The notes under the pieces: model-generated
Told to the model about the DNA's origin: nothing
What the model saw: only the letters and a program-made list of their open reading frames with translations
Databases searched by the model: none
Shown: positions 625-5,209 of the stretch, piece after piece
How positions within the stretch are numbered: the stretch's first letter is position 1
How the letters are laid out: every line of letters begins with the position of its first letter
Assembly: GCA_945292135.1 (NCBI GenBank)
Contig: CALYRA010000071.1
Coordinates: forward strand, 1-6,570
DNA from: an uncultured Dysgonomonas sp.
GTDB lineage: Bacteria > Bacteroidota > Bacteroidia > Bacteroidales > Dysgonomonadaceae
Reading direction: 5' to 3'
DNA: 6,570 nt
Program-made: the position numbers and the translations under genes

Positions 625-2634
625 ATGATAGATCAGTCCACTATAGACCGCATTATTAATGCGGCAGACATTGTCGATGTTGTATCCCAATATGTTACTC
701 TCAAAAGAAGAGGGATAAACTATGTAGGTCTTTGTCCTTTTCATGAGGATAAAACCCCTTCTTTTTATGTATCCCCATCAAAGAATATATGTAAATGTTT
801 TGCATGCGGCGAAGGAGGAACGGCTGTACATTTTATAATGAAACATGAACAGCTATCATATTTTGACGCTTTACGGTTTTTAGCTAAAAGGTATAACATT
901 GAAGTTCAGGAAAGGGAGCTGACAGATGAGCAGTAGAAGGCGTATAATGAACGTGATAGTTTGTTTATACTGAACGAATATGCTCGGGATTATTTTGTGA
1001 AAACCTTACATGAACATATTGAAGGGAAATCCGTTGGATTGAGTTATTTTCGCGAAAGAGGATTTAGGGATGATATTATCAAAAAATTCCAGTTAGGATA
1101 TAACCTTGAAGAAAAAGATTCTTTTACGCAAGAAGCTTTAAGAGCAGGATACAAAGAGGATTATCTTGTAAAAACCGGATTGACGTTTAAAGGAGATAAT
1201 AATTACCTTGCTGACAGATTTAGAGGGCGCGTAATGTTTCCCGTACATACCTTATCCGGCAAAGTGGTAGCCTTTGGCGGTCGTATCCTCAAGAAAGTCG
1301 AAAATACCGGTAAATATGTCAACTCACCTGAAAGTGATATTTATCATAAAGGAAATGAACTTTATGGTATCTTCTTTGCCAAACAAGCAATCACAAAGAA
1401 TGATTGTTGTTACCTTGTTGAAGGATATACCGATGTCATTTCTATGCATCAATCAGGAATTGAAAATGTAGTAGCATCTTCAGGTACGGCGCTCACACAT
1501 GGACAAATAAAACTCATACATCGATTCACAAATAATGTTACAGTCATATATGATGGCGATGCGGCAGGTATAAAAGCCGCATTGAGAGGGATAGACCTTT
1601 TGTTGGAAGAAGGTATGAATATAAAAGTTATCCTTCTGCCCGATGGCGAAGACCCCGATTCGTTTGCGAAAAAGCAAAATGCGGAATCTTTGTCGAAATA
1701 TATTGCCGAACATGAAGTCGACTTTATTCGATTTAAGACACAATTATTATTAGGCGATGCAGGAGAAGACCCTATAAAACGAGCTAACCTGATAACAGAT
1801 ATTGTAAACAGTATTTCTGTTATACCGGATAATATTGTTCGTACGGTTTACATCCGTGATTGCAGTCATTTGCTTGAAATAGATGAACAGGTATTGATAC
1901 GTGAGGTTAATAATAAACGTAGAAATTATCACGATCAAAAATTTGCGGAAAACAAACAAAATCAGAATAATTCTTATTCTAAACAAGAAGAATTTATGTC
2001 TTTTACTCCTAAAAACGGAGCGAGACAACAAACGAAAAAAAGCGTTTCAATATACAAATACGAGCGTGCTGTGCTTTATTATATCGTCCGTTATGGAGCT
2101 GAAATATTGATAGATGAATCTACAACCGAAAATGGGGAAAAAATAAAGCCAATAAATATTATTGAATTTATCAAGACAGATTTAGAACAAGATGGTTTGT
2201 GGTTTACTTATCCGCTCTATAAGCAGATGCTCGATGAGGCTATTGAACATCTGCAACAAGAAGGATTTACGCCTTCCCGTTATTTTCTAAGTCATCCGGA
2301 TACGCAAATCAGCAAGATCGCAGTAGATTTGATCAGTGATAAATATCAATTAAGTAAAGTTCATATAAAGCAATTTGGAGAGAACGTAAGTATGGAAGAT
2401 ACGCCCCTCTCCGAAGACAAACATTTAATAAAACATGTTCCGTGGGTATTGACTGAGCTAAAGAATGCTTATGTTAAACAACGAATGGATGAGATTACGG
2501 AACAATTGAAAGAAAAGCAGAAAGAAGGAAATTTTGAGCTTGTTATGAGCCTAATGACCGAACTCAAAGAACTAAAAGAAGTGAAAAAAATGTTGGACAA
2601 ATTTTTGGGCGAACGAATTGTCTTACCTAAATAA
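625..2634 (+). CDS. dnaG: DNA primase DnaG, full length but interrupted by one in-frame TAG codon
   Basis: Makes the RNA primers for lagging-strand synthesis, working with the DnaB helicase at the fork. Counting the TAG as residue 104, the reading frame has 669 positions, the usual length in Bacteroidota. Domains in order: CHC2 zinc-binding domain (about 1-100) with C37, H40, C58 and C61; linker holding the TAG; RNA polymerase domain with the RFRGRVMFP motif near 198-206; TOPRIM core with E266 (EGYTDV), D310 and D312 (DGDAAG) and the later DPD motif at 343-345, numbering very close to E. coli E265, D309 and D311; an Asn/Gln/Lys-rich linker (430-473); and a C-terminal helicase-binding region. 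ATG 625 is chosen because a stop at 601 closes the frame upstream and MIDQSTIDRI is a typical DnaG start. Without readthrough, the products would be a 103-residue zinc domain (625-936) and, only if translation restarted at TTG 961, a 557-residue polymerase part. Identity is certain; whether the gene is functional is open. Confidence 0.93.
934..936 (+). other. In-frame amber (TAG) codon within dnaG
   Basis: The codons read GAG CAG TAG AAG GCG TAT AAT GAA CGT GAT AGT TTG TTT, that is DEQ-stop-KAYNERDSLF. Both sides fit DnaG with no loss of frame and no missing residues, so the change is one substitution; CAG, AAG or GAG would each give a plausible linker residue. The codon falls between the zinc-binding and polymerase domains. 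The first in-frame ATG downstream is at 1234, inside the polymerase domain, so restart would need a weak start such as TTG 961 or GTG 997. Confidence 0.95.
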
Positions 2635-2942: not shown

Positions 2943-3860
2943 ATGTTTTATCTCGAAGCGCTGGATGTAGTTAAACAATATGGAAATCATACCGCTCTGA
3001 GTGGAGTTAGCATACATGTGCCCCACGGGTGTATATACGGATTGCTTGGACCTAACGGAGCAGGCAAAAGTTCGCTTATCAGAATTATCAACCGTATCAC
3101 AGCTCCGGATCAAGGCAAAATATTGATAAATGGGAAAGAGTCATTACCCGAAGATATTTTCAATATAGGTTATATGCCCGAAGAACGAGGTTTATATAAA
3201 AAAATGAAAGTAGGAGAACACATCCTTTTTTTAGCGCGTTTGCGAGGATTGTCGAAAACAGATGCTAAAAAGAAGATGGAATATTGGCTCGATAGATTTG
3301 ATATCACTTCATGGGAACAGAAAAAGGTCGAGGAATTGTCAAAAGGCATGCAGCAAAAAATTCAATTTATAGCAACGGTCATTCATAATCCTGATTTATT
3401 TATCCTTGACGAGCCATTTAGTGGATTGGATCCGGTAAATGCGGAAACATTGAAAAATGAAATATTGGAATTGAAAAAAAATGGGAAAACAGTTATTCTT
3501 TCCACGCACAATATGGGATCAGTAGAAGAATTGTGTGATCAGATAACGCTTATCGACAAATCTAAAGCAATGCTTCAAGGCGATGTACAAGAAATACGCG
3601 CCCAATATCGTAAGCATATATTTAACATTGAAATAGCAGACAATAAAGCATTTGACGTTGTTTCGCCTAATTTCAAAGTACTATCTATTACGCCTAATAA
3701 ACAAAGTACTATTGTACAGATTCAGAAAAACGATGTCGAGACATCCAATTCTTTATTAATAAAAGACATTGTAGATAAGTATGAGATTCTATCTTTCCAA
3801 GAACAACTTCCTACAATGAATGATATATTTATCCAAATCGTATCCAACAAAGCGAAATGA
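2943..3860 (+). CDS. ABC-2 type transporter ATP-binding subunit (NatA/YhaQ-like)
   Basis: The 305-residue cytoplasmic ATPase of an exporter, driving the membrane subunit encoded next to it. All nucleotide-binding motifs are intact: Walker A GPNGAGKSS (36-44), IGYMPEERGLY (76-85) in the Q-loop region, where this subfamily carries the MPEERG form, signature LSKGM (132-136), Walker B LFILDE (152-157), D-loop SGLD (160-163) and switch His H189 in STHNM. The last 80 or so residues form a C-terminal extension beyond the ATPase fold, usual in the NatA/DrrA type. ATG 2943 starts the conserved strand LEALDVVKQYG directly; there is no Shine-Dalgarno, as normal for the phylum. The stop overlaps the permease start (ATGA), which indicates translational coupling. 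The NatA group is linked to sodium or drug export, but the substrate cannot be read from this sequence. Confidence 0.92.
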   Translation: MFYLEALDVVKQYGNHTALSGVSIHVPHGCIYGLLGPNGAGKSSLIRIINRITAPDQGKILINGKESLPEDIFNIGYMPEERGLYKKMKVGEHILFLARLRGLSKTDAKKKMEYWLDRFDITSWEQKKVEELSKGMQQKIQFIATVIHNPDLFILDEPFSGLDPVNAETLKNEILELKKNGKTVILSTHNMGSVEELCDQITLIDKSKAMLQGDVQEIRAQYRKHIFNIEIADNKAFDVVSPNFKVLSITPNKQSTIVQIQKNDVETSNSLLIKDIVDKYEILSFQEQLPTMNDIFIQIVSNKAK

Positions 3861-5209
3861 AAGCATTAAGTTTGATTATACAGCGCGAATATGCCGCAAC
3901 AGTGAAGACAAAGGCATTTATCATAACAACGATACTTATGCCCATAATAATGATCGTGATGATAGCATTACCTTCTTTTTTGATGAAGTTAGGAAATGAT
4001 GATATAAAGAAAATTTATGTTTTGGATCGTACAGGTATTTATTACCCACTGTTGGAATCTTCGGATAAATATCAATTTGAGAATTTGAAAGACGATGAAG
4101 CAGCGTTTCCCAGAAAAAATAATGATGGCGCCGGTCAGAATTCCGCTTTGCTGACAATTGATGCCGTATTGAATGATAAACCGACAGCAGCTACATTTTT
4201 TTCCGAGAAACAAAAACCACCTCGCGAACTGACCCAATATATAAACGAAGTGCTAACAAACGCCGTAAAGAATAAGACATTGAATGATTATACGGCAGAA
4301 ATGAATGTTGATAAGCAAGTAGCGGATTCTATAAATAAGATAACGACATCAAAAGAAAGCATAAAAATAACGACAAAGCAATGGGATGAAACAGGAGCGG
4401 AAAAAGATACAAAAAGCGATGCAGTTTCATACATCGGAATGGGGTTGACCTTTTTAATGTTTTTCTTTATCGTTATGAATGGATCAATGGTTATGCAAAG
4501 CGTCGTTGAGGAAAAAACAAATAAGATAGTAGAAGTTATAATATCTTCGACGAAACCATTTAACCTGATGATGGGCAAAATTATTGCGGTAGCGTTAACC
4601 GGACTGACTCAACTTGTGATTTGGATTGTTGTAGTTGCTATTGGAGGAGGAATTGTAATGACTGCGTTAGGAGTAGATGCAGCTACCCTCTCAACGATGG
4701 CTTCAGGAAGTGGCGATCCTCAACAAATGGCCGCGATGACGGGAGCCGATCCCAATATGCAGCTTGGTATAAAAGCTTTAGTCGGCGTTGATTGGATTAA
4801 AGTAATTTCCAGCTTTATTATATATTTCATAGGAGGATACTTGCTCTATGCTTCGCTATTTGCCATGTTTGGATCCGCTGCCAATGATTCGCAAGAAGCT
4901 CAACAATTTATCAGACCAGTAACAGTTATCCTGATGTTGGCATTTTATGTAGGATTTGCGGCTACCCGAAATCCCGAAGGAAATCTGGCTTTCTGGGGAT
5001 CTATTATACCATTTACGTCACCCATTGTAATGATGGTACGCCTTCCGTTTGAAGTTCCGATTTGGGAAATTATTTTATCATTTGTTTTGCTCTTTGCTTC
5101 AGCAATATGTTCAACAATGTTGGCAGGGAAGATTTACCGTACAGGTATTTTGATGCAAGGTAAAAAAACAAACTTCAAGGAAATATTTAAATGGCTGAGA
5201 TATAAATAA
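3857..5209 (+). CDS. ABC-2 type transporter permease subunit (NatB/YhaP-like)
   Basis: The 450-residue inner-membrane subunit of the exporter formed with the preceding ATPase. Layout: first membrane helix at about 21-43, a long hydrophilic, presumably extracytoplasmic domain (about 44-190), then a cluster of helices near 192-213, 240-270, 314-336, 353-370 and 402-424, with a further hydrophobic stretch near 381-395. The segment VVEEKTNKIVEVIISSTKP (216-234) before the third helix is the conserved cytoplasmic coupling region of NatB/YhaP-type permeases. A polar loop rich in Met, Gly and Ala (about 272-304) separates two helices. The start ATG lies inside the ATPase stop (ATGA), and the gene ends in tandem TAA stops followed by a terminator, so the two genes appear to form a complete two-gene operon. 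The exported substrate is unknown; no accessory periplasmic or outer-membrane partner is next to it. Confidence 0.9.
   Translation: MKALSLIIQREYAATVKTKAFIITTILMPIIMIVMIALPSFLMKLGNDDIKKIYVLDRTGIYYPLLESSDKYQFENLKDDEAAFPRKNNDGAGQNSALLTIDAVLNDKPTAATFFSEKQKPPRELTQYINEVLTNAVKNKTLNDYTAEMNVDKQVADSINKITTSKESIKITTKQWDETGAEKDTKSDAVSYIGMGLTFLMFFFIVMNGSMVMQSVVEEKTNKIVEVIISSTKPFNLMMGKIIAVALTGLTQLVIWIVVVAIGGGIVMTALGVDAATLSTMASGSGDPQQMAAMTGADPNMQLGIKALVGVDWIKVISSFIIYFIGGYLLYASLFAMFGSAANDSQEAQQFIRPVTVILMLAFYVGFAATRNPEGNLAFWGSIIPFTSPIVMMVRLPFEVPIWEIILSFVLLFASAICSTMLAGKIYRTGILMQGKKTNFKEIFKWLRYK

Follow-up and report, generated by a model that had tools for sequence, protein, structure and literature searches.

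Is the TAG codon that breaks the DNA primase gene (dnaG) of this locus a feature of the organism, or of its assembled sequence? The window, that is, the whole 6,570-nucleotide stretch of DNA that was analysed, is contig C71 in its entirety and belongs to a draft genome of an uncultured Dysgonomonas sp. (416 contigs, 1,998,400 bases, 71.55% complete). Were the codon real, either an essential gene would be broken and the cells would survive all the same, or the genetic code would be read differently. As an artefact, it would call for caution in claiming recoding or split genes from fragmented drafts, a caution that consists in first comparing the breaks with near-identical proteins of other assemblies and with further conserved genes in the draft concerned. 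Such comparisons, made here at the level of sequence, indicate that the TAG is most likely not a feature of the organism.

The primase gene and the codon that interrupts it

The frame opened by ATG 625 runs for 103 residues up to the TAG and then continues, in the same frame, through to TAA 2632–2634 (Table 1). Homologues align through the TAG without any change of frame, which confirms the in-frame stop without frameshift described by the sequence-only reading. As both pieces score against TIGR01391, the dnaG model (143.7 bits for one, 302.2 bits for the other), the TAG is not a chance break of an open reading frame. Apart from the stop, the zinc, polymerase-core and TOPRIM domains all lie in one frame, as in a DnaG primase. 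The interrupted codon is residue 104 of 669 and falls, as had also been claimed, in the interdomain linker, between the end of the zinc domain at residue 97 and the start of the polymerase core at residue 124. The in-frame starts past the TAG are TTG 961, GTG 997, TTG 1039, TTG 1180 and ATG 1234, in agreement with the earlier statement that no ATG occurs before 1234. A second, intact dnaG elsewhere in the genome, which the same reading had envisaged, was not found in this 71.55% complete draft, in which the gene is single-copy. A second oddity, absent from that reading, lies 21 bases downstream of the stop, at residue 111.

Table 1. Features of the interrupted primase gene in window coordinates; domain limits are taken from the near-identical protein P0001 (Pfam).
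Feature	Position	Strand	Basis
dnaG, DNA primase, broken in frame	625..2634	+	frames 625–936 and on to 2634; intact near-identical proteins of 669 residues; TIGR01391
In-frame TAG, residue 104	934..936	+	K in 117/119 and R in 2/119 homologous proteins
Residue 111, second unusual codon (D)	955..957	+	E in 119/119 homologous proteins; D in 9/90 other distinct loci (wider relatives)
Zinc-ribbon domain PF01807, residues 3–97	631..915	+	Pfam match
Polymerase core DNAG_N PF08275, residues 124–252	994..1380	+	Pfam match
TOPRIM domain PF13155, residues 263–347	1411..1665	+	Pfam match
TTG, earliest possible in-frame restart past the stop	961..963	+	position only; use unsupported by any evidence

Elsewhere in the window (2943–5209), a gene for an ABC transporter ATPase and one for a large membrane protein, probably its permease, are both open in frame, and the first shares a few bases with the start of the second.

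Near-identical proteins and residues at the break

When a database of 5.8 billion proteins was searched, 11 proteins (P0001–P0011) were found to be 98–100% identical to the primase over its full length, all of them intact and all carrying K104 and E111. They likely come from the same species as the window, judging from this identity, and they differ among themselves when the proteins are compared. P0001 differs from the window protein at residues 104 and 111 alone; it is recorded on 8 contigs, of up to 884,981 bases, although the contigs behind P0001–P0007 may not be independent, and the source of P0008–P0011 is marked lgn. P0013, the interrupted form, is recorded from a single contig of 6,570 bases, which is the window's own size. 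Intact near-identical copies, from assemblies that may not be independent, thus stand against a break on one contig. Lysine at this place in proteins likely of the same species is, in protein form, one of the results that the sequence-only reading had named as refuting a genuine amber codon. Among the same hits, P0012 is a protein of 1154 residues that contains two primase copies in tandem, the first one cut short, and is perhaps an assembly fault.

The wider homologues were considered as 119 proteins (the 120 hits listed minus the interrupted form) or as 118 (also minus the double-length P0012). Residues 104 and 111 are the only ones of the window protein that are missing from all 118 homologues, among the matches listed. 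At the DNA level, the site is spanned by 111 loci (counting the window), with 91 distinct proteins among the matches. Lysine occupies residue 104 in each of the 90 other distinct loci, while residue 111 is glutamate in 81 of the 91 and aspartate in 10, the window being one of these. Since aspartate occurs in 9 of the 90 other distinct loci, it is tolerated in wider relatives, and D111 may, on this comparison, be a natural variant. The chance that two differences would lie within 7 codons of each other is about 2%.

A primase match is present in 58 of the 61 genomes searched, the window's own included; with that one set aside, the top match in each of the remaining 57 is without internal stop, though not always full-length. 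Among the incomplete ones are a weak match to the zinc domain only in G020 and partial matches in G032 and G001; secondary, weaker matches with an internal TAA occur in G057 and G034. Other fragmented primases are seen in these genomes. In a draft of the same genus (G023:C83:15110-17099), dnaG appears as two overlapping pieces, with a frameshift-like change near residues 35–55. In another genome, primase residues 1–119 and 232–659 lie on two contigs (G042:C108 and G042:C134). Finally, one draft holds two primase parts on two contigs, of 85% and 61% identity (G001:C31:1-822 and G001:C93:4398-5558), which may come from different organisms.

Other interrupted genes of the draft

Genes of relatives were compared with 81 of the 416 draft contigs as subjects. 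In the initial comparison, with genes from 400 kb of G016, a genome placed in the same genus, 27 genes were matched and two in-frame stops were seen, both TAG, a pattern that resembled an effect on UAG until the gene set was widened. The widened set takes in further parts of G016 and G014, ten named dnaG neighbourhoods, as well as 12 short pieces from other draft contigs (714,240 bases), and gives 71 matched genes (26,380 codons) in which five stops, but no frameshift, are flagged. One of the five, a TAA in L184, was set aside, as it sits just before a start codon. The other four are premature stops in 4 of the 71 genes: TAG in dnaG and in an alpha-amylase gene (L198), TGA in queA (L201) and in L121, a TolC-like gene of the outer membrane. 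When other genomes are taken as subjects, no internal stop is found in 106 matched genes (four overlapping comparisons), except for two at the extreme ends of matches (column 6 in one of 216 and column 209 in one of 211). Run against the 81 draft contigs, these queries give 3 internal stops in 56 genes, L184 being again left out. Codon-use scoring on either side of stops mostly picked up adjacent genes, and the dnaG stop was not among them.

The amylase stop (TAG at L198:2334-2336, minus strand; G000:C64) stands at a tyrosine position, tyrosine being found in 119 of the 120 listed homologues and a gap in the remaining one. An intact near-identical protein, P0241 (98%), is known for this gene too. 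The 75 residues ahead of the stop are identical in both, and 5 of the 8 differences, namely the stop and the next four, lie within 16 codons, a clustering expected by chance in about 1 in 10,000 placements. At three positions of this cluster, the stop included, the amylase differs from every one of the 120 listed homologues. queA (L201:1135-1137, G000:C67) contains a TGA and is otherwise 93% identical to a relative, and the TGA of the TolC-like gene lies near position 1988 of L121 (G000:C102).

A further interruption is found in dnaE (L259, G000:C263), as an in-frame TAA that falls within conserved sequence and corresponds to residue 408 of the G016 protein; the main dnaE matches in 12 other genomes are open. 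Stops of any kind therefore occur in other conserved genes of the draft, and all three stop codons are represented. Searches of the whole draft for gene families show an open rpoB, an rpoC open over the part present, and uninterrupted matches for tRNA synthetases (3 of 3) and for the Plug domain (18 of 18); among 23 ABC matches, there is one TAA, in a weak partial match (G000:C98:114-290).

Origin of the interrupting codon

All these results point to the TAG being, most likely, a base error in the consensus assembled for this fragmented draft, dnaG being otherwise an ordinary single gene. An error is favoured because near-identical copies are intact, the interrupted form is on one contig and stops occur in four other genes. 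The living organism would have an unbroken dnaG and make one full-length primase, the draft would contain brief runs of unreliable sequence, probably at places where the consensus rests on few reads, and special translation would not be required. Of the five interrupted genes, two or more likely contain such poor patches, each of a few codons. Some observations nevertheless run counter to an error: odd residues do not gather around the dnaE stop, the rpoB, rpoC, tRNA-synthetase and Plug-domain matches are open as described above, and D111 may be natural. A base-call or assembly error had already been ranked first by the sequence-only reading, ahead of suppression or a recent mutation and of a split primase; this order is kept here, and the gap has widened.

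If UAG were instead decoded as an amino acid, through a suppressor tRNA or an altered code, the protein would not be ended at residue 104; this would suit the two TAGs inside conserved genes and the failure to find release factor 1 (prfA) in this incomplete draft. One release factor gene was found in the draft; it is below the prfA cut-off and is therefore likely to encode RF2 (the coordinates show that the TAA flagged there is where this gene normally ends). However, release factor 1 is above the cut-off in 23 of 25 genomes, and the two in which it falls short, this draft and G006, are both incomplete. TAG is, moreover, neither rare nor absent as a true gene end: it ends 37 of 315 long open frames on the 81 contigs and, among 64 matched genes, closes 4 at or close to the point where the relative ends (five places before overlaps are removed). 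Nor are internal stops confined to TAG and to one constant residue, since TGA and TAA break genes too, and the two TAGs stand in place of a lysine in one case and of a tyrosine in the other. Given that every stop codon is represented, in unrelated genes, and that the TAGs are at such unlike residues, no single suppressor or reassignment explains them. Reassignment of UAG was rejected on these grounds, and no suppressor tRNA was found among the 21 tRNAs detected in this 71.55% complete draft. Thus, of the search suggested earlier, for a tRNA with a CUA anticodon (CTA in the gene) and for more in-frame TAGs, the first part came out empty (0/21), whereas the second gave the amylase TAG, beside TGA and TAA. 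With lysine at the site in the near-identical proteins as well, the suppressor or UAG-recoded lineage proposed earlier finds no support, and the decoding of UAG is very improbable. It would be just as surprising if this were a lineage with low-efficiency read-through of all three stops, able to tolerate nonsense codons in a single-copy primase and in the replicative polymerase.

A real nonsense codon might also belong to a minor, dying or dead strain chosen by the assembler, most cells having an intact dnaG. The intact near-identical proteins vary, which indicates that the species has strains, and several genes are broken, as in genome decay. Yet gene decay usually brings frameshifts as well, and none is flagged in the 71 genes; a single genome would have to carry breaks in dnaG as well as dnaE with their frames otherwise kept, and the interrupted dnaG is listed on a single contig. 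We consider such a strain unlikely, though less so than any altered reading of stops. The least credible possibility is a split primase, in which a separate zinc protein of 103 residues would act in trans on a polymerase part begun at TTG 961. The stop does sit in the linker, and a title in the reference list of a review (PMC6163395) speaks of primase subunits able to act in trans. But the break is not conserved in the species or its relatives, the near-identical proteins being whole and the codon being one for lysine in 90 of 90 other distinct loci, and the first ATG in frame past the stop is far downstream. Used as a query, the 103-residue piece matched 935 proteins, of which 120 were listed and the ends of 50 compared; nearly all of these 50 continue beyond residue 104 or pass, at differing points, into unrelated sequence, and the only ends near the linker are those of P0207 (102 residues) and P0238 (100 residues, named partial). 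As no linker break is shared among these 50 of the 120 listed hits, the split primase was rejected, and the suggestion made from the sequence alone is left without support. P0207 is a zinc-domain protein, 75% identical, on a contig of 3,699 bases.

The locus resembles systems of stop reassignment or amber suppression in having a TAG in the conserved dnaG frame and a second one in the amylase, but differs from them in that TAG still terminates genes, TGA and TAA also interrupt, and no CUA tRNA was found. The gene itself is like any DnaG-type primase (TIGR01391; PF01807, PF08275, TOPRIM), with the domains, the order and the size of an ordinary Dysgonomonas primase, and differs by one in-frame TAG at residue 104, seen in this assembly alone so far as searched. 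The likeness to consensus errors of fragmented drafts or metagenome-assembled genomes is threefold: stops of all kinds are present in unrelated conserved genes, intact near-identical copies exist elsewhere, and odd residues are clustered near two of the stops.
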